From a bacterium (lineage in GTDB: Bacteria; Acidobacteriota; Polarisedimenticolia; Polarisedimenticolales; Polarisedimenticolaceae): 64,000 nucleotides of DNA. The translations under genes and the position numbers were made by a program. Where the stretch lies: assembly GCA_024226515.1 (NCBI GenBank), contig JAAELQ010000030.1, positions 1 to 64,000 of the forward strand, given 5' to 3'. Shown here one piece after another: positions 44,451-64,000 of this stretch. The stretch's first letter is position 1, and every line of letters begins with the position of its first letter. Under the pieces are notes generated by a model that was not told the origin of the DNA, did no database searches, and saw only the letters and a program-made list of their open reading frames with translations.

Positions 44451-44501
44451 GACCCAGGTTGATGAATGACCGCCCGAATCTCCCGGACCCAGGTTGATGA
44501 A
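44451..44501 (+). repeat. 16-bp direct repeat across the TPR gene start
   Basis: GACCCAGGTTGATGAA occurs at 44451-44466 and again at 44486-44501, 35 bp apart. The first copy lies in a nine-codon reading frame (ATG 44440, product MTTPTQVDE) that has its own GGAG and ends in ATGA at the true start; the second lies in codons 7-12 of the gene (RTQVDEG). It looks like a small tandem duplication of the gene start. Confidence 0.7.
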
Positions 44502-46319
44502 GGGCGATTCGCCCTCGCCATCTGCGTGGGGCTGGTGCTGGCCGTCGTGCTGGTCTACGCGGGCACGGCGAACCACGAGTTCGTCCACTGGGACGACGAC
44601 ATCTACGTCTTCGACAACGCGCGCGTCGTCGGCGGCCTCGATGCCGACGGAGTGGGCTGGGCCTTCACCAGCACCCATGCCGCGAACTGGCACCCGCTGA
44701 CCTGGATCTCGCACATGGTCGACGTCGAGCTGTTCGGGCTCGAACCGGGAGGCCACCACCTGGTCAACGTGGCCCTGCACGCGCTGAACGCGGTCCTGCT
44801 GTTCGCGGCGCTGCGGATGATGACCGGGACTCTGTGGCCCCCCGCCCTCGTCGCGGCGCTGTTCGCGTTGCATCCGCTGCGCGTCGAATCGGTGGCCTGG
44901 GTCGCCGAGCGCAAGGACCTGCTGAGCGGCCTGTTCTGGATGACGACGCTGCTGGCCTACGCCTGGTACTGCAAGCGAACGGGGCCGGCGCGCTACCTCG
45001 TCGTCGTCGCGTCGCTGGCGCTGGGATTGATGTCCAAGCCGATGCTGGTCACGCTGCCGCTCGTCCTGCTGCTGCTGGACGGCTGGCCACTCGGGCGTCT
45101 CGCCGGAGGGCCGGCGGGGCGGGTCGCGTTCGACCGGCCGAGGTCGGTGAGCTTCCTGATCGTCGAGAAGCTGCCGCTGCTGTTGCTGTCCGCCGTGTCG
45201 AGCTGGTTGACCGGCGTCGCCCAGAAGAGCGGCGGAGCGATCGGCTCGCTCGAAGCGCTGCCGTTCGCCGACCGTCTGGCCAACGCGCTGACGGCATACG
45301 TGGCCTACCTGACGAAGACGATCGCGCCACTGGGTCTGGCCTGCCTCTACCCGCATCCGGCCCTCGTGGGACAGACGAACTGGATCGGCGCGGCGATCGC
45401 CGGATTGCTGCTGCTGGTCATCACCGCCGCCGCGATATTCCTGTGGAAGCGCGCGCCCTACGTGACCGTCGGCTGGCTGTGGTACGTCGGCACGCTGGTC
45501 CCCGTGATCGGGCTGTTCCAGGTGGGCATCCAGTCGATGGCCGACCGCTACGCGTACGTCCCGTTGATCGGCGTTTACATCGTGGTCGCGGGCGTCGGCG
45601 CGACGCTCGTCTCTGCGCGGCCGTCGCTGCGCAAGCCGGCCGCGGCGGTCGCCGGCATCGTGCTGCTGGGACTCGCTGCGGGGACGTGGCTACAGGTACG
45701 GACCTGGAGCGACAGCCGCGCGCTGTTCGAGCGCGCGCTGAGCGTCACGTCGAACAACTACCGCATGCACAACAACCTGGGCAATGTCTATCTTCGCGCC
45801 GGCGAGGTCGAACGCGCTTCCGGAGAGTTCGAAGCGGCCCTCGAGATCAAGCCCGACTACGCCACCGCGCGCAACAACCTGGGCAAGGTCTGGGTACGCC
45901 GCAACGATATGACGCGCGCGGCGCAGCAGTTCGCGCGCGCGGTCGAGCTCGAACCCGACTACGCGAAGGCGCACTACAACCTGGCACAGGTGCTGGGGCA
46001 AATGGGGCGGGTGGACGAGGCGCTGCAGCACCTACGGACTGCCGTGGAGCTCGACCCCGGGTTACCCAACGCGCACAACGCGCTGGGCGTGCGCCTCGAG
46101 GCGAACGGCGACCTCGACGGCGCGCGCCGCCACTACGAACGGGCGATCGCGATCAAGCCGGACTTTTCCGAGGCGCACAACAACCTGGGGATTCTGCTCG
46201 CCAGGCAGGGCGACCTGCAGGGAGCCGCCGCCAGCTTCGAACGCGCGCTTCAGGCCGATCCGAACAACCCCGGCGCGCGTGACAACCTGCAACGCGTGCG
46301 CGGGATGCTGCGGCGCTGA
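44466..46319 (+). CDS. Polytopic membrane protein with C-terminal TPR repeats
   Basis: A 617-residue protein of the TMTC-like type. About ten hydrophobic segments span residues 16-410, with the acidic loop HWDDDIYVFDN after the first helix that recalls GT-C glycosyltransferases, and HPLRVESVAWVAERKDLLSG, a block frequent in these proteins. Residues about 418-615 form five or more TPR units (NNLGNVYLRAGEVERASGEF, YNLAQVLGQMGRVDEALQHL, NNLGILLARQGDLQGAAASF). A protein- or lipid-glycosyltransferase activity is possible, not shown. Translation probably starts by coupling from a nine-codon upstream frame. Confidence 0.82.
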   Translation: MTARISRTQVDEGRFALAICVGLVLAVVLVYAGTANHEFVHWDDDIYVFDNARVVGGLDADGVGWAFTSTHAANWHPLTWISHMVDVELFGLEPGGHHLVNVALHALNAVLLFAALRMMTGTLWPPALVAALFALHPLRVESVAWVAERKDLLSGLFWMTTLLAYAWYCKRTGPARYLVVVASLALGLMSKPMLVTLPLVLLLLDGWPLGRLAGGPAGRVAFDRPRSVSFLIVEKLPLLLLSAVSSWLTGVAQKSGGAIGSLEALPFADRLANALTAYVAYLTKTIAPLGLACLYPHPALVGQTNWIGAAIAGLLLLVITAAAIFLWKRAPYVTVGWLWYVGTLVPVIGLFQVGIQSMADRYAYVPLIGVYIVVAGVGATLVSARPSLRKPAAAVAGIVLLGLAAGTWLQVRTWSDSRALFERALSVTSNNYRMHNNLGNVYLRAGEVERASGEFEAALEIKPDYATARNNLGKVWVRRNDMTRAAQQFARAVELEPDYAKAHYNLAQVLGQMGRVDEALQHLRTAVELDPGLPNAHNALGVRLEANGDLDGARRHYERAIAIKPDFSEAHNNLGILLARQGDLQGAAASFERALQADPNNPGARDNLQRVRGMLRR

Positions 46320-51314: not shown

Positions 51315-51761
51315 ATGCATCCTGAAAGCAACAGATCGTCGTCGAGACGCAACTGGCTGCTGCTGCTCGGGGCCGCGATCCTGTTCGTCGTCGCGTTCGG
51401 CCTGCTCGAACGCGTCGTCGCTCCCAGGCCGGTGCCCGGCGTTACCGCGTCGGGGACGGACGACACGCAGGCCAACGCCCCCGCTCCGCCGACCGTCCAG
51501 CGGCGCAACGACGGCGGGGTCGACATCCGCCACGGCTTCTTCCACCGCACGACGATCCGCATGGGCAGTCCGGAGGACGACGACGCGCTGTACGAGTGCG
51601 TGAAGCGGGCGTTCGACGAGGCATTCGGCGACGGCACCGCCGGCCGTACGCGCGCCCAGCTCAAGGCGGAGACCGAGCGCGTGCAGGACGAGTGCATCGC
51701 GACCTTCCGGCCGCCGCGGCCCGAGCCGCCGCCCCCGCCGGATCTCCCGGGTCAGTCGTGA
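51315..51761 (+). CDS. Small single-pass membrane protein, unknown
   Basis: A 148-residue protein with one N-terminal membrane helix (NWLLLLGAAILFVVAFGLLE, about residues 13-32), a proline/threonine-rich linker and a soluble C-terminal domain with two cysteines (YECVKRAFDEAF and VQDECIATF) that could form a disulfide. It ends in a proline-rich tail (PPRPEPPPPPDLP). No family recognised. It follows the HupE-like gene after 58 bp and overlaps the 3' end of the convergent glycosyltransferase by 10 bp. Confidence 0.6.
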   Translation: MHPESNRSSSRRNWLLLLGAAILFVVAFGLLERVVAPRPVPGVTASGTDDTQANAPAPPTVQRRNDGGVDIRHGFFHRTTIRMGSPEDDDALYECVKRAFDEAFGDGTAGRTRAQLKAETERVQDECIATFRPPRPEPPPPPDLPGQS

Positions 51762-53470
51762 CGGATGAGGACGTGCGACGGATGCTCTTCGTCGATCACG
51801 CCGTGCGTCCCCGCGAGCCGGTTCTTCTTTCGTAGGTCGCGATAGCGTTTCTTGGGCAGCACCAGGTAGGCGCCGCCGTCGGTACCGAGGAACTCGGCGA
51901 GCTCGTCGGAATCGCGGATGCGATCGATCGCGTTGTCGCTGTAGTAGTAACCGGTGTCGAGCGAGGTGCCGTAGGCCCCGATCGGCTCCTGCCCCTCTCG
52001 ATGCGCTTCGTAGCTGACGAACACGTCACGCAGCGACTTCTTCGGCGAGAGGTCCGGCACGACACGTTGACCGAGAAAGAACGCGAACAACAGGGCGGGC
52101 ACGGCCGCCAGCGCGAACCAGCCCTCGCGGCGGCGCGCGATGGCGACCGCCGCGAGCACAGCCCACGCGCCGAGCGCGAGGAGCAGCGGCTGGAGGAGAT
52201 CGAATCCGAACAACGTGCGCTTGACGGTCGCGGTCTCGAGCACACGCGCCGGCTCGCCGGCCACGATCCAGGCCAGCGCACCCAGCACGACCACGGCGGC
52301 GACCGACGAGGCCGTGCGACGCCGCAACAAACGCACCGCTCCGATGCCGGCGAGTCCCGCCAGCGGAGGCTGCAGGACGCCGTAGAAGTGGCCCATCTTC
52401 GCTTCCGACGCCGTGAAGAACAGCAACGCCCCGACGAACGCTCCGGCCAGGATCCGGTCGGGTCCGGATTCGTCCCGCGCGACGGCTCCGACCAGCCCGA
52501 TGGCGGCCGGCACGGTCCAGGGCAGGCCGCCGACGGCGACGATCAACAGCACGTAGCGCAGCGGCCCGGTGTGACGCTTCGGCGTCTCGCCGAGGTTCAG
52601 CGGGTGCTTGTAGGTCAGCAGACGTTCCGCCGCCTCCTCGGGCTCGTTCTGGAACAGGGCGACGAACCACGGCGCCACGACGACCGCCAGCAACAGGAGG
52701 CCGATCAGCAACGCCTGTGCGCGTAGTTTCCCCCCGAAGCCCAGGGCCGCGATCGCGAGAGTGCCGGCCAGACCGAACGCCACGAGGTTCAGCGGCCCGC
52801 TGTACGTGTGCTGCCCGACGAAGTACAGGCCGGTCACGGCGAGCAACGCGGCCACTCCCGCGAGGGATCGCCGGGCGGCCCACCAACCCAGGACGCCCCA
52901 CGCGGCGAGGGCCAGCCCCCGCGGAAACTCGGTCAGCGTCGCGAGTCCGACGGCCACGACGCCCAGCGCCTGCACCCAGCGACGGGCGCGCTCGGATTGG
53001 ATAGCGGGCGCCGCGATCGCCGCGGCGAGCGCCGCGCCGAGCAGCGACGCGTGCGGCATGTCCGGGGTCGCGAAGCGCCCCAGCAGGACCCACTGCGGCG
53101 AGGTCAGCAACGCCGCGCCGGCGATGAGCCCCTCCGTACGCCGCCCACGCAACGTCAATGCTGCACAGAGCAGCGCCGGGCACAACGCGGCCAGCAACGC
53201 GGACGGCAACCGTGCCGAGGTTTCCGACACGCCGAACGCCGCCTGCGAGCCGCCGATCAACCAGTAGGTCAGCGGCGGCTTGACCACGCGAGGGTGCTCG
53301 CGATAGTACGGGACGATCCAATCGCCGCGCTGGGACATCTCGCGGGCGGCCTGCGCGTAGCGCGGCTCCCAGGGGTCCCACAGCCCCGAGGCGCCCAGCC
53401 TCGGCAACAACAGGCCGAGGCCGACCAGAAACAGCAACAGGGCCGGGATCCACTTCCTGTGTTCGCTCAC
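51752..53470 (-). CDS. ArnT/PMT-like glycosyltransferase (first copy)
   Basis: A 572-residue membrane glycosyltransferase of the GT-C ArnT type, which uses polyprenyl-phosphate sugars. About 11 hydrophobic segments. The first periplasmic loop carries GLWDPWEPRYAQAAREM followed by KPPLTYWL, the acidic and lysine motifs of this family. A soluble C-terminal part follows (about residues 470-572). It starts at GTG 53470 with GAGGAG upstream; TGATACGAT (minus strand, 53522-53530) could be an extended -10. It is divergent from a paralogue that shares these motifs. Confidence 0.87.
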   Translation of the reverse strand: MSEHRKWIPALLLFLVGLGLLLPRLGASGLWDPWEPRYAQAAREMSQRGDWIVPYYREHPRVVKPPLTYWLIGGSQAAFGVSETSARLPSALLAALCPALLCAALTLRGRRTEGLIAGAALLTSPQWVLLGRFATPDMPHASLLGAALAAAIAAPAIQSERARRWVQALGVVAVGLATLTEFPRGLALAAWGVLGWWAARRSLAGVAALLAVTGLYFVGQHTYSGPLNLVAFGLAGTLAIAALGFGGKLRAQALLIGLLLLAVVVAPWFVALFQNEPEEAAERLLTYKHPLNLGETPKRHTGPLRYVLLIVAVGGLPWTVPAAIGLVGAVARDESGPDRILAGAFVGALLFFTASEAKMGHFYGVLQPPLAGLAGIGAVRLLRRRTASSVAAVVVLGALAWIVAGEPARVLETATVKRTLFGFDLLQPLLLALGAWAVLAAVAIARRREGWFALAAVPALLFAFFLGQRVVPDLSPKKSLRDVFVSYEAHREGQEPIGAYGTSLDTGYYYSDNAIDRIRDSDELAEFLGTDGGAYLVLPKKRYRDLRKKNRLAGTHGVIDEEHPSHVLIRHD

Positions 53471-53598
53471 GCCGCTCCTCGCCGCAAGATCCGGCCGGGC
53501 CGGGCCGCCGCCCGAGCCGGGATCGTATCAGAGCCGTTCCCCGGCCCGACTCGGTTTTCGATGGAAAAAACGGGCCGCGGCATCTAACTTTGTCCGCT

Positions 53599-55848
53599 AT
53601 GGCCGACCTGAATCCCAGCCCCGCTCCCGCGCCCGCGCCGGAGCCCGCGGAGACTCCGCCGAAGGGTAGGCTCTTCGCCCTGCTGCCGTTCGCGGCGGTC
53701 GCCATCGTCGGACTGTCGATCCTGCTGCCTGCGCTGGGTCAGTACGGCCTGTGGGATCCCTGGGAGCCGAAGTACTCGCAGAGCGCCCGGGAGATGGTCG
53801 AGCGCGGCTCGTACATCGTGCCGTACTACCGCGGCGACATCCGACTGACGAAACCGATCCTGGCCTACTGGGGGATCCTCTCGGGCTACGCCGTCCTCGG
53901 AATGAACGAGCTGGGCGCCCGACTGCCCGGCGTGCTGCTGGCCGTGGCCACGATGCTCGCGACGCTGTACTCGGTGTCGCTGCTGCGCGGGCGGCGCGCG
54001 GGTCTGATCTCGGCCCTCGTCCTGGGGACGACTCCCTACTTCTACTTCATCTCGCGTCAGGCGATGCCCGACGTGTACCTGTTTACCTCGTACGGCTGCG
54101 CGATGCTGTTCTTCTGCCTCGGCCTGTTCGGGCCGGACCGGCGCCGACAGCTCCACTTCGGGATCAGCTACGCCTGTCTCGGCCTGGCCGTGATGGCCAA
54201 GGGTCCGATGATCGTCGGCATCCTGTTCTTCGCTACGCTCGCGATCTTCGCCTTCCTGCGCATCGACCCACGCGTTCCGGTCGCGCCCGGAATCCGTAAA
54301 GAGTCGCTGCAGCTCACGGTCTCGCTGGCCCTCGCGGCCGCCGCGAGCGGCTTCGGCGGTTTTCTCGCCTTCCTGTTCCTGCTGGGAGAGAACTGGTGGG
54401 GCTACAGCGCGGAGAAGCGCAGCGAGATGGCCTTCGTGCGGCATCAGATCGAGAATACCGCGGCGCGCTTCCACCTGACCGAGATCGTGCTGGTGGCGTT
54501 GATCGCCGCGCTCGTTGCGCTGGCCGTGCTGGCGCTTCGCGCTACCGGCTCGCCGCTGAAGCGCCGCGTCGTGCCGGCGCTCTCCGCCATCGGGGCCCTG
54601 GTCGCGCTCGTCACGCTGGTCGCCGCGGGCTCCGAGACGAAGATCGGCGTGGCGGCCGTGCTGTCGATGGTGGCCATGCTGGGAATCGCCGGCGGAACGA
54701 CGTGGCGTTACGTGCAACTGGAGACGATCGCGCCGCACGTGCTTCCGCTACTGCGCCCGATCGGCAGACAGATCGTGCTGGCCGCGATCGTGCTGACGGT
54801 AGTGGCCGGCCCGTGGCACATCGCCGTGGTGCTCGCGCAGGGCGACGGGTACTTCACCGACTTCATCCTCAAGCACAACGTCAATCGTGCCGGGGAGAAG
54901 ATCAACCGCGCGGGCGTCTCCGATTTCTACCTGCGCGTGATGATCTTCGGCTTCTTCCCCTGGGTCTGTTTCCTGCCGGTGGCGCTCGGCCGTCTGGTCG
55001 CGTGGTGGGACGAGCGACCGCTGCGTCGATTCGGCTTCGAGATCTACCTGCTGATCAACGCGGCGGTGATCTTCGTCGCCTTCAGCGGGTCGGTGACCAA
55101 GTTCCCACACTACCTGTCGCCGATGATCGTCCCGGCGACGGTGCTGGCCGGGCTGACGCTCGATCGCATGCTGCGCGACCCCGACTCGAAGCTGACCCGG
55201 GTCGGCGCCGTGGCGGCCTGCATGCTGTACCTGCCGCCGATGCTCGACCTCGTGCGCTACGACGGCATCGAGCGACTCATCGGCTCGTTCACGATGAAGA
55301 GTGCGGTGTCCTCCTCGATGGCCCCCGGAGCGCCGTACTCGGCGCTGCTGTACGCCGGCGCGGTCGCGATGTTCGCGCTGATCCTCGTACGCTCGCGCAT
55401 CGTCGTCGGTGCGCTGATCGCCTGCATGCTGGCGTTCAGTATCTACATGACCGGCGCGTTCACTCCGCGGCTGAGCGAGCACAAGTCGATGAAACTGCTG
55501 GTGGAGTCGTGGGAAGACCTGCGGCGCCCCGGCGAGCCGATCGGCTTCTTCGGCGACACCAAGCACGGCACCTTCTTCTACACCAACCGCGAGATCCAGC
55601 ACATGGCCAACGCGCGGCGACTCGAGCGCTTCCTACGGCCCGAGAACCCGGCCTTCGTCATCATGCAGCGCAAGCGACTGGACGAGATCGAAACGCGCTG
55701 GCGCACTCGCTACCCGGACAACCCGCTGTACGAGGTCAACGACTCGCACCTGTCCTACGTGACCGTGGCCAACTATCCCGTCGCCGAGAACAACGGCGAG
55801 CCGCAGCTGCTCTTCCCTCCGGAAGAGAAGAAATACGGAGAGGAGTGA
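53599..55848 (+). CDS. ArnT/PMT-like glycosyltransferase (second copy)
   Basis: A 749-residue paralogue of the divergent neighbour, with LWDPWEPKYSQSAREMVERG and TKPILAYWGI in the same positions, an alanine/proline-rich cytoplasmic N-terminus (about residues 1-22), about 13 hydrophobic segments and a soluble C-terminal domain (about 630-749). It is longer through extra membrane segments in the middle (residues about 230-370). It probably transfers a sugar from polyprenyl phosphate to a lipid or glycan. ATG 53599 has no ribosome binding site; a TTG at 53590 is the alternative start. Confidence 0.85.
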   Translation: MADLNPSPAPAPAPEPAETPPKGRLFALLPFAAVAIVGLSILLPALGQYGLWDPWEPKYSQSAREMVERGSYIVPYYRGDIRLTKPILAYWGILSGYAVLGMNELGARLPGVLLAVATMLATLYSVSLLRGRRAGLISALVLGTTPYFYFISRQAMPDVYLFTSYGCAMLFFCLGLFGPDRRRQLHFGISYACLGLAVMAKGPMIVGILFFATLAIFAFLRIDPRVPVAPGIRKESLQLTVSLALAAAASGFGGFLAFLFLLGENWWGYSAEKRSEMAFVRHQIENTAARFHLTEIVLVALIAALVALAVLALRATGSPLKRRVVPALSAIGALVALVTLVAAGSETKIGVAAVLSMVAMLGIAGGTTWRYVQLETIAPHVLPLLRPIGRQIVLAAIVLTVVAGPWHIAVVLAQGDGYFTDFILKHNVNRAGEKINRAGVSDFYLRVMIFGFFPWVCFLPVALGRLVAWWDERPLRRFGFEIYLLINAAVIFVAFSGSVTKFPHYLSPMIVPATVLAGLTLDRMLRDPDSKLTRVGAVAACMLYLPPMLDLVRYDGIERLIGSFTMKSAVSSSMAPGAPYSALLYAGAVAMFALILVRSRIVVGALIACMLAFSIYMTGAFTPRLSEHKSMKLLVESWEDLRRPGEPIGFFGDTKHGTFFYTNREIQHMANARRLERFLRPENPAFVIMQRKRLDEIETRWRTRYPDNPLYEVNDSHLSYVTVANYPVAENNGEPQLLFPPEEKKYGEE

Positions 55849-55852
55849 CCGC

Positions 55853-56647
55853 TCAGTCGACGCGCGCCAGCACGTAGTACAGGTGAGCGTAGATCAGCTT
55901 GAGCGGCAACGGCAGCGGAAGCCACTCGAAGAAGTACATGAACTTCAGCTTCGGCGGGTAGCCACCGTTCTTCATCCACCAGATCGTCCGGCTGTCCCAG
56001 TCGATCTTGTTCAGGTCGACGTTCTTGCGATGCAGCTTCATGTCGCGGATGCCGAGCGAATCCGGGTACGGTGGCGTGTCCACGGCCCCGGTGCGCACGA
56101 CGGTCAACCCCTGCTCGCGGAAGAAGCGTCGCACGTGGTACGGGTTCATGAAGCGGATGTCCCCGTGGTTCCACGGAACGTCGAACACCTTGTGCACGGT
56201 GCGGTGGCTGAAGAAGCCGGGGTTGAAACGGTTGACCGCGATGAACATCACGTAGCCGCGGGACAGGCGCACCATCTCGCGCAGCAACGCCGGCTTGTCC
56301 TCGTGCTGACTGAGCTGCATGAAGTTCCACACCAGGTCGTAGCCGGCATCGGGCAGGCCGGTGCGCTCGAGGTCCTCACACGTCTCGTAGCTCACGGGGA
56401 AGTCGAGCTCGCGCCAGGCCCACCTGGACTTCTCCTCTGCGTTGACCAGCGTCACGTCGCAGCCGGCCTCGCCGAAGGGCAGGGAGTACAGCGAGGGCAT
56501 CGCCTTCTCGCCCTTGGCCGGGATCTCCAGCACGTTCCCGATCGAGTGGTCCCGCACGAGCCGCTTGAACAGCTTGTTCATGGCATAGCGCTCGTAGTCG
56601 AGGCCCTTGCCTTCCCACTCCACCTGGCCTGTCGGTCTCTCGCTCAC
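55853..56647 (-). CDS. Methyltransferase-like protein
   Basis: A 264-residue protein with a class I SAM-methyltransferase-like layout: NVLEIPAKGEKAMPSLYSLP in place of motif I, CDVTLVNAEE as motif II, YDLVWNFMQLSQHED and LLREMVRLSRGYVMFIAVN as later strands. The glycine-rich loop is degenerate (EIPAKG rather than E-X-G-X-G), so SAM binding is uncertain. The C-terminal part is aromatic and hydrophobic (MYFFEWLPLPLPLKLIYAHL) and may touch the membrane. GTG 56647 with AAGGG 7 nt upstream is preferred over ATG 56665, which has no such site. It converges on the second ArnT-like gene. Confidence 0.68.
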   Translation of the reverse strand: MSERPTGQVEWEGKGLDYERYAMNKLFKRLVRDHSIGNVLEIPAKGEKAMPSLYSLPFGEAGCDVTLVNAEEKSRWAWRELDFPVSYETCEDLERTGLPDAGYDLVWNFMQLSQHEDKPALLREMVRLSRGYVMFIAVNRFNPGFFSHRTVHKVFDVPWNHGDIRFMNPYHVRRFFREQGLTVVRTGAVDTPPYPDSLGIRDMKLHRKNVDLNKIDWDSRTIWWMKNGGYPPKLKFMYFFEWLPLPLPLKLIYAHLYYVLARVD

Positions 56648-56733
56648 GTCGCGACCCTTATACATGGCGCGGTCCGTCGGGCGCCACCCGCGACCTACGC
56701 CGCAATAGGTATGCATAGTATGGTGATCGGCCG

Positions 56734-57735
56734 ATGACGGTGTCGAACGCACAGGACGGCACGGGTTCGCGCGTGCTGATCACCGGCGCGACCGGCTTCA
56801 TCGGCGCGCGGCTGGTTCCCGCGCTGCTCGAGGCCGGGTATCGCGTACGGGCACTGGTGCGGGATCCCGCGCGCGCCGCGGATCTGGGCGACGCCGAGAT
56901 CGCGCAGGGCGATCTACTGCGGCCCGAGAGCCTGGCCGGCGTCGAGAGCGACGTCGACGTCGTCGTGCACTGCGCCAGCATCCTCGGCAAGTGGGGCACG
57001 CCGGAGTCCGAGATCCACCGCGTCAACGTCACGGGCACGCAGAACCTGCTCGACCGCTTTTCGGATCGCCCACTGCGGCGCTTCCTACATCTCAGCGCCG
57101 GGGGCGTCTCGGGACCGGTGGCGACGCGGTCGGTCGACGAGTCCTACGTCTGTCGGCCGGCCACCGCGTACGAGCGGACGAAGCTGACGGCGGAGCAGGC
57201 CGTGCTGGCCTCGGCCGGAGACGGGCTGGCGGCGACCGTAGTACGACCGACGTTCACCTACGGTCCCGGCGACCCGCACAAGCTGGCGCTGTTCCGCGCG
57301 GTGAAGAAGGGCCGTTACGCGTTCGTCGGCGACGGCCTCAGCGTCAACCACCCGGTCTTCATCGAGGACCTCGTGCGCGGGATTCTGCTGGCTCTCGAGC
57401 ACGCGAGCAGCGGCGAGGTCTACATCATCGGCGGGCCGCAGCCGGAGACGAAACGCGACCTGATCTACGCCATCGCGGACGGCCTGGGTGTCACGCGGCC
57501 CAGGCTGCGTATCCCGCGCGGCATCGCGTGGCCCGCGGCGTGCGTGCTGGAAGCCGTCGGCCGTGCGCTCGGTTTCGAGCCGATCCTGACCCGCTCGCGC
57601 GTGATGATGATGGCGGACAACTTCGGCTACTCGATCGACAAGGCGCGACGCGAGCTGGGCTACGAGCCGCGGATGGAGCTGCGCCCCGGCATCGAGCGCA
57701 CGATCGAGTCGTACCGCGCGGCGGGGCTCCTGTGA
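56734..57735 (+). CDS. NAD-dependent sugar epimerase/dehydratase
   Basis: A 333-residue extended SDR. The cofactor loop is ITGATGFIGARLVPALLEAG; the catalytic Tyr-Lys pair is in TAYERTKLTAEQ; FTYGPGDPHKLAL and GEVYIIGGPQ are typical of UDP-glucose 4-epimerase-like and hopanoid-associated (HpnA-like) epimerases. Substrate cannot be read from sequence. It starts the glycan operon and overlaps the next start (GTGA). Confidence 0.88.
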   Translation: MTVSNAQDGTGSRVLITGATGFIGARLVPALLEAGYRVRALVRDPARAADLGDAEIAQGDLLRPESLAGVESDVDVVVHCASILGKWGTPESEIHRVNVTGTQNLLDRFSDRPLRRFLHLSAGGVSGPVATRSVDESYVCRPATAYERTKLTAEQAVLASAGDGLAATVVRPTFTYGPGDPHKLALFRAVKKGRYAFVGDGLSVNHPVFIEDLVRGILLALEHASSGEVYIIGGPQPETKRDLIYAIADGLGVTRPRLRIPRGIAWPAACVLEAVGRALGFEPILTRSRVMMMADNFGYSIDKARRELGYEPRMELRPGIERTIESYRAAGLL

Positions 57736-58583
57736 AGCGCGCGATCGTCAACGCCGACGACTTCGGCATCGCGCCCGGGGTCAGCCGCGGTATCCTGCGC
57801 GCCTTTCGCGAGGGCGTGCTGACCTCGACCACGATGCTGTGCAACCTGGGCGGCTTCGACGACGGCGTCGCGCTGGCCCGGGAGAATCCGGACCTGCCGC
57901 TGGGGATCCACCTGTCGCTGCTGTGGGGTCCCCCCGTGTCGGATCCCGCGACGGTGCCGACGCTGATGCAGGGCGACGGCTGTTTCCCGCGTAGCCTGAC
58001 GCTGCTCGCGCGGCGCTACTACCTGGGGCGGCTGTCCGCGGCGCAGGTGCGGCTGGAGCTGGGAGCCCAGATCCGGCGCTTCCTCGACGCCGGGTTGACG
58101 CCGACCCACGTGGACACACACAAGCACATTCACTGCCTTCCCGGGATCCTCGACGCTGTGTTGGACGTGGCCGCCGAGCACGGCATCCGCTGCGTGCGCT
58201 TCCCCGGCGAGGCCCCGGTCCGGGCCGGTTCCGGCTGCCCGCGCCCGGGGATCAAGGCTCGTGCGAAGCGGGATCTGATCCGTTTCCTGTCCCGCGGAGG
58301 CCGCCGCAAACTCGAGGCGGCAGGCTTCCGGACGACGGATCACTTCGTCGGGATCGCCTACATGGACCTTTTCGACGCCGAGACGCTATCTTTTCTGCTG
58401 CGAAACCTGGCAGGGGGCGTTACGGAAATCATGTGCCATCCGGGCCATGCGGACCCGCAGGCGGACATCTACTCCAGCAACCCGCCGGGGCGGGAGCGGG
58501 AGCTGGCCGCGCTGATCGACCCGCGTGTGCGGGAGGCGGCGGCGGCGAGTTCCGTGGAGCTGACGGATTACCGTACGCTGTAA
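57732..58583 (+). CDS. YdjC/ChbG/HpnK-family carbohydrate deacetylase
   Basis: A 283-residue metal-dependent deacetylase that removes acetyl groups from N-acetyl sugars. Metal ligands appear in IVNADDFGIAPG (Asp) and THVDTHKHIH (two His). HpnK proteins act on N-acetylglucosaminyl hopanoids, and an HpnA-like epimerase is the gene before; hopanoid genes themselves are not seen. Start at GTG 57732 overlapping the epimerase stop. Confidence 0.88.
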   Translation: MKRAIVNADDFGIAPGVSRGILRAFREGVLTSTTMLCNLGGFDDGVALARENPDLPLGIHLSLLWGPPVSDPATVPTLMQGDGCFPRSLTLLARRYYLGRLSAAQVRLELGAQIRRFLDAGLTPTHVDTHKHIHCLPGILDAVLDVAAEHGIRCVRFPGEAPVRAGSGCPRPGIKARAKRDLIRFLSRGGRRKLEAAGFRTTDHFVGIAYMDLFDAETLSFLLRNLAGGVTEIMCHPGHADPQADIYSSNPPGRERELAALIDPRVREAAAASSVELTDYRTL

Positions 58584-58610
58584 CGAGAGACAGAGGGCGT
58601 GGAGCAGAGT

Positions 58611-59663
58611 ATGACGGGCAACAGCACACCAGGGGCCGGGCGCTTGATCACCTTCGTGCTGCCCGTGTTCAACGAAGAGGGCAACCTCGACGAGCTGTAC
58701 GAGAAGCTGACCGCCGTCCTGGCGGGGTTGGACGAGAACTACGAGCTGCTGTTCGTCGACGACGGAAGCAGCGACGAGTCGCCCCGCGTGCTGGCCGAGC
58801 TGCAACGACGCGACGAACGCGTCCGCGTGATCGAGTTCCGGCGCAACTTCGGCAAGGCCGCGGCCTACAGCGCGGGCTTCGAGGACGCGCGCGGCGAGAT
58901 CGTCGTCACGCTGGACACGGACCTACAGGACGACCCCGCCGAGGTTCCGCTGTTTCTGGACAAGATCGACGAAGGCTTCGACATGGTCGTGGGCTGGAAG
59001 TACGAGGGCAAGGGCAACCTCGAGAAGTCGCTGCCGTCGAAGTTCTTCAACTCCGTGGTGCGGCGCATCACGGAGATTCCGCTACACGACTTCAACTGCC
59101 CGTTCAAGGCCTACCGCAAGGAAGTGCTCGACGAGATCCACGTCTACGGCGAGCTGCATCGCTACATCCCCGTTCTGGCGCACGCGCGTGGTTTCACGCT
59201 GTCCGAGATCAAGATCAAGAACCTGCCGCGCAAGTCGGGCACGTCGAAGTTCGGCTACGAACGCTACCTGCGTGGCATGCTGGACCTGCTGACGATCAGC
59301 TTCATCACGCGCTTCGCCCGCCGGCCGATGCACCTGCTGGGCATGGGCGGAATCCTCGGCTGCCTGTTCGGCTCGAGCGTGCTGTTGTTCTTCATCCTGG
59401 CGCACTTCCTGTACAAGCTGAACGTGCTGGCCGACTCCAGCTGGGTGATTCACGACCGGCCCGCGTTGAACCTGGGCATCCTGCTGATCGTCGTCGGCGT
59501 TCAGTTCTTCTCGATCGGCCTGCTCGGTGAGCTGTTGATCAGCTCGGCGCGACGCGGCCCGGACGATCGCGTGTACTCGATCAAGCACCGGCGCGGCCCG
59601 CGAGCGCAGCCGCTTCCGCACGAGACGACCGAGCGCGAGAAGACGTCGCCGCCGGGCCACTGA
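58611..59663 (+). CDS. GT2 glycosyltransferase, polyprenyl-phosphate type
   Basis: A 350-residue family 2 glycosyltransferase of the dolichol-phosphate mannosyltransferase/GtrB/ArnC type. The catalytic domain has FVLPVFNEEGNLDELYEKL, LFVDDGSSDES, FRRNFGKAAAYSAGFE and the DXD region LDTDLQDDP. Two C-terminal membrane helices (about 250-275 and 295-318) anchor it. Such enzymes make the polyprenyl-phosphate sugars used by ArnT-like enzymes, which fits the two in this cluster. ATG 58611 has GGAG 6 nt upstream; a GTG at 58599 in frame is less well placed. Confidence 0.9.
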   Translation: MTGNSTPGAGRLITFVLPVFNEEGNLDELYEKLTAVLAGLDENYELLFVDDGSSDESPRVLAELQRRDERVRVIEFRRNFGKAAAYSAGFEDARGEIVVTLDTDLQDDPAEVPLFLDKIDEGFDMVVGWKYEGKGNLEKSLPSKFFNSVVRRITEIPLHDFNCPFKAYRKEVLDEIHVYGELHRYIPVLAHARGFTLSEIKIKNLPRKSGTSKFGYERYLRGMLDLLTISFITRFARRPMHLLGMGGILGCLFGSSVLLFFILAHFLYKLNVLADSSWVIHDRPALNLGILLIVVGVQFFSIGLLGELLISSARRGPDDRVYSIKHRRGPRAQPLPHETTEREKTSPPGH

Positions 59664-60829
59664 TGCCCGACACGGACCAGTCCAGGTTGCGCATCGCCCT
59701 GGTCGGCCTGACCCACCCGTTTCGCGGCGGCATTGCCCACTACACGACGCTGCTCTGTCGCGCGTTGCGCGAGCGCCACGAGGTGCGGTTCTTCGCCCTC
59801 TCGCGCCAGTATCCGAAGCTGCTGTTCCCGGGGACCAAGCAGACCGACGATTCGGACGACGCGCTGACGGTCGAGCACGAGGCGTGCCTGGACTCGATCA
59901 ACCCGTTCACCTGGTTCTCGACGGCCTCCCGCGTACGTCGCTTCCGGCCGGATCTGTTGCTCTTCTCGTGGTGGCACCCGTTCTTCGCGCCGAGCTTCGG
60001 CACGGTCGCGCACCTGGCCCGACGCGCCGGTGTGCCCGCCTGTTTCCTGTGTCACAACGCCAAGCCGCACGAGCGCTCGCTCGTCGACGCGATGCTGCTG
60101 CGCTACGTCTTTTCCTCGAGCCGGCTGTTCGTCGCGCACTCGCGCCAGGATCACGACGACCTGCTCGAGATGCGCCCCGGATCCACGGTGCGACTGAACC
60201 CGCACCCGACGTACGAGATCTTCGGCGCCGATGAGGCTCCTTCGGGCGACGAGGCCAAGCGGCGTCTCGGGCTCGATGGGCGCCGCGTACTGCTTTTCTT
60301 CGGATACGTTCGCGAGTACAAGGGCCTGCGCTACCTGCTGGACGCGATGGCCGAGCTGGACGCCGAGCAGGGGTACCACCTGCTGATCGTCGGCGAGTTC
60401 TACGAGGACAGGTCCACCTACGCCGAGCAGCTCGACCCGCTGGAGCAGGGCGGCCGGCTGACGCTCGTCGATCGTTACGTTGCCAACGAGGAGATCGGCG
60501 GCTACTTCGCGGCCGCGGACCTCGTCGCGGTGCCCTACACCAGCGCCACGCAGAGCGGGGTCGTGCAGATGGCGTACGGCTTTCTCAAGCCCGTCGTCGC
60601 GACGCGCGTCGGCGGCATCCCGGAGGTGGTCGAGGACGGCCGGACGGGCTATCTGGTCCCCCCCGGCGACGGAGGCGCGATCGCCGCCGCCGTCCGGCGC
60701 TACTTCGACGAGGATCGGGCCGAGGAGTTCCGGCGCCACATCGACGCCGAGAACGAGAAGTACAGCTGGGATCGGATGGTCGAGACGATCGAGGCGATCT
60801 GCCCCGGCTCCGGCGACGGAAACGGGTGA
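59663..60829 (+). CDS. GT4 glycosyltransferase
   Basis: A 388-residue GT-B glycosyltransferase. The N-terminal half begins IALVGLTHPFRGGIAHYTTL. The donor-binding half has LLFFGYVREYKGLRYLLDAM, TLVDRYVANEEIGGYFAAAD and the GT4 nucleotide-sugar motif PVVATRVGGIPEVVEDGRTG. No membrane segment. Its start shares one base with the previous stop (TGATG), and its own stop overlaps the kinase start. Confidence 0.9.
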   Translation: MPDTDQSRLRIALVGLTHPFRGGIAHYTTLLCRALRERHEVRFFALSRQYPKLLFPGTKQTDDSDDALTVEHEACLDSINPFTWFSTASRVRRFRPDLLLFSWWHPFFAPSFGTVAHLARRAGVPACFLCHNAKPHERSLVDAMLLRYVFSSSRLFVAHSRQDHDDLLEMRPGSTVRLNPHPTYEIFGADEAPSGDEAKRRLGLDGRRVLLFFGYVREYKGLRYLLDAMAELDAEQGYHLLIVGEFYEDRSTYAEQLDPLEQGGRLTLVDRYVANEEIGGYFAAADLVAVPYTSATQSGVVQMAYGFLKPVVATRVGGIPEVVEDGRTGYLVPPGDGGAIAAAVRRYFDEDRAEEFRRHIDAENEKYSWDRMVETIEAICPGSGDGNG

Positions 60830-61932
60830 TGCTCGAGGCGGTTCACGAGGCCCTCGACGGGCACTTCGGCGGCGCCGCGGGACGCGAGCTGCGTATCGAC
60901 GACTGCCTGTGTCTCGACGTGACGCACGGGGCGATCGACGGCTACTGTTACCTGTTCTTCGGGCACGACGGCGAGCTCCCGCGGGTCGTGGCCAAGGCGG
61001 CGCGCACGCCGGCCGGTGCCCGCGTGCTGGAGATCGAGCTGGAAAACCTGCGCCGGCTGCACACGGCCGGAATGAACGACGGGATGCCGCGCATCCCCGA
61101 GCCGCTGCACGCGCTGCGTACCGACGAGGTCGTGGTCACGTTGCAGACCGCGCTGGCCGGCACGCTGCTGAAGAACGTCCCGGGCCCGGAGTTGTTCTCG
61201 CCCGCGGCGGCCGCGGGCACGTTCGACGCGATCTTCGACTGGTGGCGGAGCTTCGAGCGCTGCGCGGGCGTGCGTCGCACGACGATCGACGAACCGACAT
61301 ACGCGGAGCGCGTGCTGGCCGGGGTCGGGCGCTTCGAACGCCGCTACCTGCTCGACGACGCCGAGCGCGAGTTTCTCCACGCGACGTTCCGCGAGCGACG
61401 GGACTTGCTGGGACTGGACGTGCCGCTGATGCCGCGCCACGGCGATCTGTGCACGGCGAACATGGTGCGCCAGCCGGAGGGGATCGGCGTATTCGACTGG
61501 GAGTTTCCGCTGGAGGATCACCTCCCGTTGTTCGACCTGTTCTACCTGTTCTCCTCCCTGCGCCATCCGTATGGCGGCTCGCGGGGAGAGTCGGACCATT
61601 TCACCAGCTTCAAGGACGTGTTCTGGGGCGACGGACACCTCTCGCGCGAGCTGCGCGGACGGGCGAAGGGCTTCTGCACCGAACACGGGCTGGCCGAGGC
61701 GGCCGTCGCCGATCTGTTCGTCCTGGCGCTGATCGACGTCGCGAACCTGAAGTTCGAGGCGTTGCTCGAATCGCGGGGGATCGCGGAGGACGACCTGGAC
61801 GCCGACCGACGGGCGGCGTGGGACGGCCTGGGACCGGTCGAGCAGAACGTGCCCTTCGCACGCATCTCGAGCGGAGTGTTCGAGAATCTGAGACACGTGG
61901 TGCGCCACGGCGCGCCGCGATTGCTGGACTGA
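60829..61932 (+). CDS. APH-fold kinase
   Basis: A 367-residue protein with an aminoglycoside phosphotransferase/choline-kinase fold. The Brenner motif is HGDLCTANM (catalytic Asp, Asn, about residues 204-212) and the metal-binding DWEFP follows at about 224. The N-lobe lysine is probably in PRVVAKAAR. In a glycan cluster it more likely phosphorylates a sugar or a glycolipid than an antibiotic. ATG 60829 (or GTG 60826) overlaps the previous stop. Confidence 0.83.
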   Translation: MLEAVHEALDGHFGGAAGRELRIDDCLCLDVTHGAIDGYCYLFFGHDGELPRVVAKAARTPAGARVLEIELENLRRLHTAGMNDGMPRIPEPLHALRTDEVVVTLQTALAGTLLKNVPGPELFSPAAAAGTFDAIFDWWRSFERCAGVRRTTIDEPTYAERVLAGVGRFERRYLLDDAEREFLHATFRERRDLLGLDVPLMPRHGDLCTANMVRQPEGIGVFDWEFPLEDHLPLFDLFYLFSSLRHPYGGSRGESDHFTSFKDVFWGDGHLSRELRGRAKGFCTEHGLAEAAVADLFVLALIDVANLKFEALLESRGIAEDDLDADRRAAWDGLGPVEQNVPFARISSGVFENLRHVVRHGAPRLLD

Positions 61933-61936
61933 CGCG

Positions 61937-62908
61937 ATGGCCATGCGACTCAGCGTCGTCATCCCGACGCACAACCGGCCGCAGTCGCTGCGCCGGTCGC
62001 TCGACGCCCTGGAGGCGCAGACGCTCGCCCGCGATCGGTTCGAGGTGCTGGCGGTGGACGACGGGTCGAGCCCCGAGCACCGCAAGGAGATCCGGCAGTT
62101 CCGCGCGCCGTTCGGCTACCGTCTGCTGGAGAAGGCCCAGGGCGGGCTGCCCACCGCACGCAACGTGGGCGCCGAGCGCGCCACGGGCGACGTCCTGCTG
62201 TTCCTCGACGACGACGTCGTCCCGCATCCCGATCTGTTGCTGCAGCACCTGCGCACGCACGAGGAGGCGGACGAGCCGCTCGCGGTCGTCGGCGCGCTCC
62301 CCTACCCGGACCACGTCGAGCTGGACTGTTTCCTGTGGTACCTCGAGCAGAGCGGGCACTACGACCTGTACCGCAATCCGAAGAAGTACGCCGGCGGCGC
62401 GCCGCCGCTGCCGCCGCTGAACGGCAACTCGTCCGTGCGTCGCTCGGCGTTCTTCGACGTCGGCCGCTACGACGAGCGCTTCAGCTCGTACGGCAGCGAG
62501 GACCTCGAGCTGGGCTATCGGTTGAACAAGGCCGGCGTGCGCTTCGTCTACAATCCGCAGGCGGTGGGCTACCACGATCACATCAAGGACTTCCCGCGCT
62601 TCTGTCACGACATGGAGCTCGCCGGCGAGTCGCTGATCGGGATCTACCGCATCTACCCCGAGATCAAGGCGGCGAAGAAGATCGACGTCGTCGAGGATCG
62701 TCTCTCGCAACTGCACGGAAAAAAGAAGCTGATCAAGCTGATCATGGCGACGACGATGGCGCTGCCGTGGGTGCTGGCGCTGCCGCGCGCGGTCGTCCGG
62801 GTGGGGACACCGTACATGGGCCTGCGACGCGTGCTGTTCCCGCTGTATCGCTGGGTGGCGCACCATCACTACGCCGTCGGCATGCGGCGCGGGCTGGACG
62901 ACGCATGA
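61937..62908 (+). CDS. GT2 glycosyltransferase
   Basis: A 323-residue family 2 glycosyltransferase. LSVVIPTHNRPQSLRRSLDA, LAVDDGSS, LPTARNVGAERATGDVLLFL with the DXD-containing LDDDVVPHPD, and the acceptor-site SYGSEDLELGYRLNKAG are all present. No clear membrane anchor apart from a hydrophobic patch near residues 272-290. It starts 4 bp after the kinase and its stop overlaps the deacetylase start. Confidence 0.9.
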   Translation: MAMRLSVVIPTHNRPQSLRRSLDALEAQTLARDRFEVLAVDDGSSPEHRKEIRQFRAPFGYRLLEKAQGGLPTARNVGAERATGDVLLFLDDDVVPHPDLLLQHLRTHEEADEPLAVVGALPYPDHVELDCFLWYLEQSGHYDLYRNPKKYAGGAPPLPPLNGNSSVRRSAFFDVGRYDERFSSYGSEDLELGYRLNKAGVRFVYNPQAVGYHDHIKDFPRFCHDMELAGESLIGIYRIYPEIKAAKKIDVVEDRLSQLHGKKKLIKLIMATTMALPWVLALPRAVVRVGTPYMGLRRVLFPLYRWVAHHHYAVGMRRGLDDA

Positions 62909-63630
62909 GCCAGACGCCGATCCTGATGTACCACTGGTTCCGCTCTCCCGAGGTGCCGACGCGCAGCCGGTCGCCGCAGCTCGAGATCTCGCAGGAGCTG
63001 TTCGAGCGGCAGATGAACTGGCTGCGCGAAGCCGGCTACCGCACGGTGTCGATCGAGCGCGCGCTTCACGGCGGCCTCGAGGATCGGTCGATCGTCATCA
63101 CCTTCGACGACGGAACCCTCGACTTCTGGGAGTTCGCCCGGCCGATCCTCGACCGGCACGGGTTCAAGGCGACGCTGTTCGTGGTCAGCGGATCCGTCGG
63201 GGGCGAGAGCGACTGGGACCGGCACCTGGGCGAGCCGCCGCGGCCGCTGATGGACTGGGAGCAGATCGCCACGTTGCAGCGTGAGGGCCACGAGATCGGC
63301 TCGCACACGCACAGCCACCGGCCGCTGACGGAGATCGACGACGACGCGGCGCTGGACGAGCTGAAACGCTCGCGCGAGACGCTGGAGGCCAGGCTGGGAC
63401 GCGCGCCGAAGCTGCTGGCCTACCCGCGCGGCTTCTACCGCGAGCAGCACAAGCAGCTCGTGCGCCAGGCGGGCTACTCGGCCGCGTGCGCCGTGATCCT
63501 GCGCTGGCGCGACCTGTTTCGCTCGGACGTCTTCGCCCTGAAGCGCATGACGATCAAGGGTACCGAGTCGATGGGCCGCTTCAAGGCGCGGGTCCGACTG
63601 TGCCGTATGGTGCCGGACCCGCAGGCGTGA
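62905..63630 (+). CDS. Polysaccharide deacetylase (NodB/CE4 fold)
   Basis: A 241-residue carbohydrate esterase 4 protein. Motif 1 is VITFDDGTLDFW (metal and base aspartates), motif 2 is HEIGSHTHSHRPL (two metal histidines) and motif 3 is LAYPRGFY. No signal peptide, so it probably acts in the cytoplasm on a sugar or lipid-linked intermediate. ATG 62905 overlaps the previous stop (ATGA). Confidence 0.9.
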   Translation: MSQTPILMYHWFRSPEVPTRSRSPQLEISQELFERQMNWLREAGYRTVSIERALHGGLEDRSIVITFDDGTLDFWEFARPILDRHGFKATLFVVSGSVGGESDWDRHLGEPPRPLMDWEQIATLQREGHEIGSHTHSHRPLTEIDDDAALDELKRSRETLEARLGRAPKLLAYPRGFYREQHKQLVRQAGYSAACAVILRWRDLFRSDVFALKRMTIKGTESMGRFKARVRLCRMVPDPQA

Positions 63631-64000
63631 GCGCGGCGGACTCCAGCGCATGGGCCTGCCCCGACGACGGGTCCGTGCTGCGCGACTCGGCGGAGGCGAC
63701 GGTGTGCTCCGGCTGCGGCGCCTCGTTCGAGATCGACGGTGAGAGCGGAGCCCCGGTCTTCGCCGGCAGCGCCACGGAGCGGGAGCGGGCGAACGCGCGA
63801 CCGCAAGCGCTCGACGAGCTGTGGCGCTCGCTGGAACGACAGCCGCCGGAGCGGGCGCTCGATGACCTTGCCGCGGCGCACGGCTGCGTGCGCTCGCCCA
63901 CCGCGCTGGACTGGAAGCGCGTCATCGCGGTGCGGCGCGACGACAGCGTGGTCGAGATCGCGGCCGGGGGCGGCGACGACACGCTCGACCTCGCGCGGCG
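63627..64000 (+). CDS. SAM-dependent methyltransferase, 3' end cut by window
   Basis: Partial gene starting at GTG 63627, overlapping the deacetylase stop as GTGA; 124 codons are visible and the frame is open to the window edge. A zinc-ribbon-like N-terminus (CPDDGSVLRD, CSGCGASFEI; about residues 11-36) resembles a Trm112-type module. After a helical linker comes VVEIAAGGGDDTLDLAR, a class I methyltransferase motif I. It continues the glycan operon. Confidence 0.72.
   Translation, partial: MSAADSSAWACPDDGSVLRDSAEATVCSGCGASFEIDGESGAPVFAGSATERERANARPQALDELWRSLERQPPERALDDLAAAHGCVRSPTALDWKRVIAVRRDDSVVEIAAGGGDDTLDLAR

Follow-up and report, generated by a model that had tools for sequence, protein, structure and literature searches.

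NaxD belongs to the YdjC family, and FlmK is the name of the ArnT-type transferase in the Francisella pathway. In Francisella, NaxD deacetylates N-acetylgalactosamine ahead of galactosamine addition to lipid A, and it is also present in Acinetobacter; FlmF2 has been likened to ArnC, and the published table lists an ArnT-type gene next to it (PMC10215926, PMC8149597). The Bordetella lgm glucosamine locus comes with ArnT (PMC5454989), and HfsH of the Caulobacter holdfast system has been reported as a cytosolic enzyme whose presumed targets of deacetylation are precursors of a lipid-linked oligomer (PMC5362036). Here we analyze an eight-gene operon and two ArnT-like genes beside it in a bacterium of the family Polarisedimenticolaceae (Acidobacteriota; GCA_024226515.1). 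The window, i.e., the whole stretch of 64,000 nucleotides studied, comprises positions 1-64000 of contig JAAELQ010000030.1 (G000:C30; 65419 bases in total). The operon probably serves to charge a membrane carrier lipid with amino sugars and to modify a glycan of the cell surface. More specifically, we propose, with a probability of roughly one half, that it joins two glycan-lipid modules, a polyprenyl-phosphate hexosamine pathway and a kinase/deacetylase tailoring set.

Likened by gene content to the NaxD/FlmF2/ArnT lipid A pathway, the locus shares with it an ArnC-like glycosyltransferase of family 2 (GT2; this one is designated GT2a), a deacetylase, an ArnT-like transferase and a host that probably makes lipopolysaccharide (LPS). 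In contrast to that pathway, the operon additionally contains genes for a kinase, a NodB-type deacetylase, a family 4 glycosyltransferase (GT4), a second GT2 (GT2b) and a methyltransferase, and the ArnT-like genes lie outside it. The features of a lipid A hexosamine pathway that were found are an intact YdjC, the adjoining GT2a, ArnT-like proteins with the Tyr and Lys residues discussed below, and LpxC. The latter scores 344 bits in this genome (39 of the 41 genomes searched possess it), and lipid A is therefore likely in this organism. An open-licence literature search for acidobacterial lipid A with ArnT found nothing. The sequence-only reading of this DNA had recognized no standard LPS, capsule or hopanoid set. 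This holds insofar as the operon contains no complete O-antigen or capsule set and the genome has no match to the squalene-hopene cyclase family PF13243; it has to be amended insofar as YdjC, the ArnC-like GT2 and ArnT follow the logic of lipid A hexosamine modification, so that half of the cluster has a known parallel.

Gene order and the putative hexosamine half of the operon

The eight genes are packed on the + strand from 56734 to contig position 64637 with gaps or overlaps of -4 to +15 bases, in the order short-chain dehydrogenase/reductase (SDR), YdjC, GT2a, GT4, aminoglycoside phosphotransferase (APH)-like kinase, GT2b, NodB and methyltransferase. The inter-gene gaps by open reading frame (ORF) coordinates are -7, +15, -1, -4, +4 and -4. 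Read by eye, the most likely start of YdjC is a GTG at 57732, overlapping the SDR gene by 4 bases, and the last methyltransferase starts at 63627, with a 4-base overlap with NodB. A tightly packed operon from 56734 beside two ArnT-like transferases had been claimed from the letters, and all of the genes named are indeed present and mostly overlap. Ten proteins of the cluster were searched against Pfam and NCBIfam, and hydrophobic segments were judged by a crude hydropathy scan. In five operon genes chosen by the ORF picker, the GC content at third codon positions is 0.90-0.93; because the picker took antisense ORFs over both YdjC and NodB, these two genes are assigned from family matches.

YdjC (57732..58583; Pfam YdjC, 243 bits) has no hydrophobic segment. 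For Klebsiella ChbG, D11, H61 and H125 are named as zinc ligands and D10 and H206 as acid/base residues (PMC9402603). Aligned to ChbG (7vi8), all five active-site positions are conserved in the window protein (D10, H60 and H130 for zinc, D9 and H236 for acid/base catalysis, numbered from the GTG start). Its best model is HpnK (207.5 bits, below the cut-off of 232.6) versus 160.4 bits for ChbG, a lead of 47 that would favour a place among the lipid-linked deacetylases. Among the nine proteins scored in this way, window YdjC included, the HpnK minus ChbG difference was +18 to +68 in six YdjC proteins from loci with GT2 or ArnT nearby, and -54 and -96 in the ChbG-like proteins of loci L105 and L118.

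GT2a (58599..59663; Pfam GT2, 114 bits) has as its best solved relatives ArnC (9bhc, 4.5e-45 over query residues 16-313) and the glycosyltransferase sll0501, which we take to be GtrB. It carries two C-terminal transmembrane-like segments and reaches 169.7 bits with PRK10714 (cut-off 529); it is thus predicted to be an ArnC/FlmF-like polyprenyl-phosphate GT2. The first gene of the operon encodes an SDR of the epimerase/3beta-HSD type (56734..57735; Pfam Epimerase, 137 bits; motifs GATGFIG and YERTK), for which "epimerase" is a fold-level name only: the two highest-scoring NCBIfam models, HpnA (163 bits) and OleD (153 bits), both stay under their cut-offs (368 and 580, respectively). It could be a 4-epimerase that sets the type of hexosamine, although these scores do not establish this.

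The two ArnT-like genes stand back to back outside the operon, beyond a divergent gene. Transferase 1 (51752..53470, - strand, 572 amino acids) matches Pfam PMT_2 (48.5 bits), the NCBIfam ArnT model PRK13279 (105.6 bits, cut-off 567) and ArnT in the PDB (5ezm, 1.8e-14). Transferase 2 (53590..55848, + strand, 752 amino acids), assigned with Pfam, NCBIfam and motifs, is its paralogue with 40% identity over 191 aligned residues. A Tyr and a Lys are required in Burkholderia ArnT (PMC5377068). Judged by motif, both window proteins retain the equivalents (RYA and VKPP in transferase 1, KYS and TKP in transferase 2).

Recurrence of YdjC with GT2 and ArnT

YdjC (E<=1e-10) was found in 13 of the 41 genomes sampled from the class (own genome included), at 15 loci besides the window. 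At ten of these 15, a GT2a match lies inside the 1.5 kb flanks of YdjC, and all seven of the ten that were read at length have ArnT within ~3 kb. A scan of named genomes with the YdjC alignment returned at least 577 relatives, and the best 80 loci were analysed. Of the 80, 36 have a GT2a match (E<=1e-4) no more than 2.5 kb from YdjC and two have one beyond 6 kb, with 379 and 454 kb of sequence examined at these distances, respectively. ArnT lies within 6 kb of YdjC in 29/80 loci, and 18/80 have both ArnT within 6 kb and GT2a within 2 kb. The order of the window (YdjC, then GT2a with >190 bits) is seen in 16/80 loci, which belong to Planctomycetota, Thermodesulfobacteriota, Acidobacteriota and one record labelled Myxococcota. 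Furthermore, GT2 and YdjC form a single ORF in eight loci by motif and length, two of which (L053 and L055) are confirmed by Pfam. Recurrent adjacency and fusion hint at a common substrate of GT2 and YdjC.

The fusion ORFs (L053 8877-10442; L055 8370-9959; also L054, L056, L062, L074, L081 and L127) occur in class relatives, Armatimonadota and Verrucomicrobiota. In L113 (4953-8327, a Desulforhabdus record), MlaC and MMPL genes, presumably HpnM/HpnN-like, are located near YdjC-GT2a. L030 and L032 belong to a YdjC group of family f12 relatives in which, by alignment, the His of the CHPG-type motif is replaced by Arg or Gln; these proteins may thus be inactive or altered.

An APH-like kinase linked to a NodB deacetylase

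The kinase gene (60826..61932) gave zero Pfam matches even at E 10. However, the protein retains the motifs HGDLxxxN and VFDWE, corresponding to the catalytic HxDxxxxN and the metal-binding Asp of APH-like kinases, and two of its relatives match PF01636 (APH). A seven-member family profile gives E-values of 8.3e-5 with APH(3') (9qos) and 0.002 with a choline/ethanolamine kinase-like protein. Matches were obtained in 12 of 60 genomes at E<=0.001 and in 13 of 396 genomes of the phylum at 1e-6 (own genome included in both; identity 23-31%), and none was confirmed in the scan of named genomes. The protein appears, from its motifs and relatives, to be a small-molecule kinase of an orphan subfamily. 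The closest relative, a paralogue, is encoded on another contig (C161) of the same genome, and a flippase gene lies near this paralogue. The surrounding region (L018 5845-12148) is a second glycan-type locus of this genome, with flippase, methyltransferase, the kinase paralogue and a weak ATP-grasp match.

NodB (62905..63630; Pfam Polysacc_deac_1, 102.5 bits; motifs TFDDG and SHTHSH) has neither a signal peptide nor any hydrophobic segment, its start included, in agreement with the cytoplasmic location that had been proposed for it. In this it resembles HfsH, also a NodB-family enzyme lacking a signal peptide, but it reaches only 40.5 bits on the HfsH model (cut-off 400). Between the kinase and NodB genes lies GT2b (61937..62908; Pfam GT2, 90 bits; EpsD-like, 173.8 bits with a cut-off of 370). 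GT4 (59663..60829; Pfam Glyco_trans_1_4, 91 bits) precedes the kinase gene and, at E<=1e-25, was found in its own genome only among the 41 class genomes. The last gene encodes a methyltransferase with one CxxC motif near the N-terminus, as read from the sequence (63627..64637, the window part reaching 64000). A link between it and the methyltransferase beside GT2a homologues in L151 was considered and rejected, as the two have no sequence similarity.

In the class search with NodB, the seven best matches besides the own one score 136-149 bits. They come from seven of the eight other kinase-holding genomes, and six of them share a contig with the kinase. The eighth such genome (G030) has a weaker NodB match of 94 bits on the kinase contig, the relative being in two pieces. 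The score gap between kinase-holding and kinase-free genomes is small, as the top match in a kinase-free genome (G009) reaches 121.5 bits. Outside the window operon there are 15 kinase places, 13 of which were read at length. Eight of these 13 have NodB downstream of the kinase, in the same orientation and next to a GT2b-like gene; if only the 10 loci with 5 kb or more of 3' sequence are counted, the share is 8 of 10. Three of the five remaining loci have <3 kb of 3' sequence; in the other two, L026 and L047, NodB was not found in 10 and 5.9 kb of 3' sequence, respectively. The APH-like kinase thus tends to travel with a NodB deacetylase in a recurring partnership.

The class loci L019-L023, L025 and L027 share with the window kinase, NodB and GT2 genes in the same direction, with NodB 2.4-5.2 kb downstream. 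By Pfam, the window operon lacks three genes present there: a NusG-like gene and a flippase gene in L022, and a gene for a polysaccharide export protein in L019. As far as tested, i.e., in these two loci, the recurrence in relatives appears to be one of polysaccharide-type loci. A comparison of cluster content across genomes had been suggested from the sequence, and it showed that YdjC with GT2 (and ArnT) and kinase with NodB and GT2 each recur; among the loci read, the two sets are combined only in this operon.

Proposed function

From these genes we infer the following course. On the inner side of the membrane, GT2a would load polyprenyl phosphate with an N-acetyl-hexosamine, and YdjC would then strip the acetyl group from this lipid-borne sugar. 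Once flipped, the resulting amino sugar may be passed on by one or both ArnT-like proteins, with lipid A or a different acceptor in the periplasm receiving it. In the second module, GT4 and GT2b would extend a lipid-linked oligosaccharide, which the cytoplasmic NodB may deacetylate; the kinase would phosphorylate a sugar of this oligosaccharide or of its precursor, and the methyltransferase would tailor it further. The two modules may share one product or act at the same time. As YdjC and NodB both keep their active-site motifs, the amino-sugar product suggested earlier is likely; a phosphate modification is predicted from the kinase gene only.

The hexosamine module is known logic in a new setting, and the kinase-NodB pair is a partnership that we did not find described: no account of a polysaccharide cluster that contains both an APH-like kinase and a deacetylase was found in the open-licence literature. 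A more speculative and rather improbable proposal is that kinase and NodB perform an unrecognized two-enzyme step, in which NodB would free an amine and the kinase would phosphorylate the same sugar to give a zwitterionic phospho-amino-sugar in surface glycans; joined here to the polyprenyl-phosphate hexosamine pathway, the pair would allow the lipid A tag to be made along with a surface glycan. If the proposed functions are true, the hexosamine-tagging logic of a few pathogens would be a widespread module in several environmental phyla, also in the form of GT2-YdjC fusions, and the orphan kinase would gain a partner and a substrate class in polysaccharide assembly.

Several observations weigh against two joined modules. 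In a quick maximum-likelihood tree of 93 YdjC proteins, the window YdjC sits on a long branch (0.77) outside every starred group, and GT2 is missing near four of its five nearest rows (the fifth, L067, has GT2a and ArnT). Among the 80 named loci, YdjC lacks a GT2a match within 2.5 kb in 44 and an ArnT match within 6 kb in 51, some contigs being short. None of the 29 other class loci fetched with the GT2a query (the best with 38-39% identity) has YdjC in its flanks, at a search threshold (1e-25) that excludes the GT2 partners found beside class YdjC. The ArnT-like scores are far beneath the NCBIfam equivalog cut-off, and the genome has 23 PMT_2 matches, of which 21 are above the cut-off; an ArnT-like neighbour is therefore not rare, and two by the operon prove little. 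The predicted structure of the kinase is of poor quality (pLDDT 41), and its linkage with NodB is confined to two families of one class and one further family (f8, f12, f36), so that few independent events are involved. No flippase, polymerase or ligase was recognized among the operon proteins with Pfam and NCBIfam. Finally, kinase, YdjC, NodB and GT4 have no match in the remaining five genomes of the family (E 0.001, 1e-10, 1e-15 and 1e-25, respectively); the operon is therefore an accessory set of this lineage, and YdjC and GT2a may have become paired here independently.

Some of these points fit better with a single pathway, in which the eight genes build one lipid-linked oligosaccharide (an O-unit or glycolipid head group), GT2a provides a polyprenyl-phosphate sugar for a branch added in the periplasm, and the ArnT-like genes lie nearby by chance. 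The coupling of all eight genes, the abundance of PMT_2 proteins and the position of the ArnT-like genes beyond the divergent gene would be expected then. This explanation is possible and deserves serious consideration, but it leaves unexplained why YdjC, GT2 and ArnT recur together in several phyla, and the operon also lacks an initiating transferase in the same searches. A Wzx/Wzy-type cluster is not apparent either, since no flippase, polymerase or export gene was detected in the ten proteins searched or in the 1.4 kb that remain up to the contig end.

It is quite unlikely that YdjC is a catabolic deacetylase of the chitobiose type captured by the cluster. Its tree neighbours do include L105 (top identity, 42%) and L118, which both score as chitobiose deacetylases, and genes near L105 are presumably sugar-uptake genes, judging from ORF starts; however, this placement is not starred, and the HpnK/ChbG ranking of the window protein is the reverse of theirs. 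The HpnA- and HpnK-like best models of the SDR and YdjC are shared with the hopanoid hpn cluster and might point to a hopanoid glycoside pathway, but both lie below their cut-offs, and this genome, 97.5% complete, lacks PF13243, which has a match in 8 of the 21 genomes searched. We rejected this reading, no squalene-hopene cyclase having been found, and consider it highly improbable. Equally hard to credit is a role of the kinase in aminoglycoside resistance, without any tie to the glycan: the match of its family profile to APH(3') speaks for it, whereas its gene lies within the coupled operon and its relatives are found upstream of NodB and GT2 genes. All in all, we prefer the two-module interpretation.

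Genomic setting and neighbouring genes

The operon has a GC content of 0.66-0.70, similar to that of the preceding 16 kb, and composition is no sign of import either way. The assembly has an estimated contamination of 5.15%, and a foreign origin of the contig was considered. A housekeeping protein of the window, which we take to be TsaD-like, has 64-71% identity to its matches in eight genomes of the same family and order and 49-58% in other class genomes, except for three partial matches (G033, 66%; G036, 61%; G039, 62%). As it is closest to genomes of the same family and order, the contig fits the genome and is not obviously foreign, and this candidate explanation was rejected.

Extension of the locus to the right had been suggested as a check for a known O-antigen or hopanoid locus. 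It completed the methyltransferase at 64637, but the contig ends at 65419, and no known locus is seen in so short an extension; its final 1.4 kb past the window contain the methyltransferase end and a DUF1579 gene. The gene divergent from the operon (55853..56752, - strand) encodes a weak methyltransferase (Methyltransf_11, below cut-off), whose membership in the cluster is uncertain. About 5 kb before the cluster, another PMT-like gene (44466-46319) encodes a protein that combines a weak PMT_2 start (below cut-off) with many TPR repeats. A LAB_N domain match, often adjoining a short GT2, is present in 32 of the 41 class genomes; the single match of the own genome is located on another contig (G000:C8:99231-99440).

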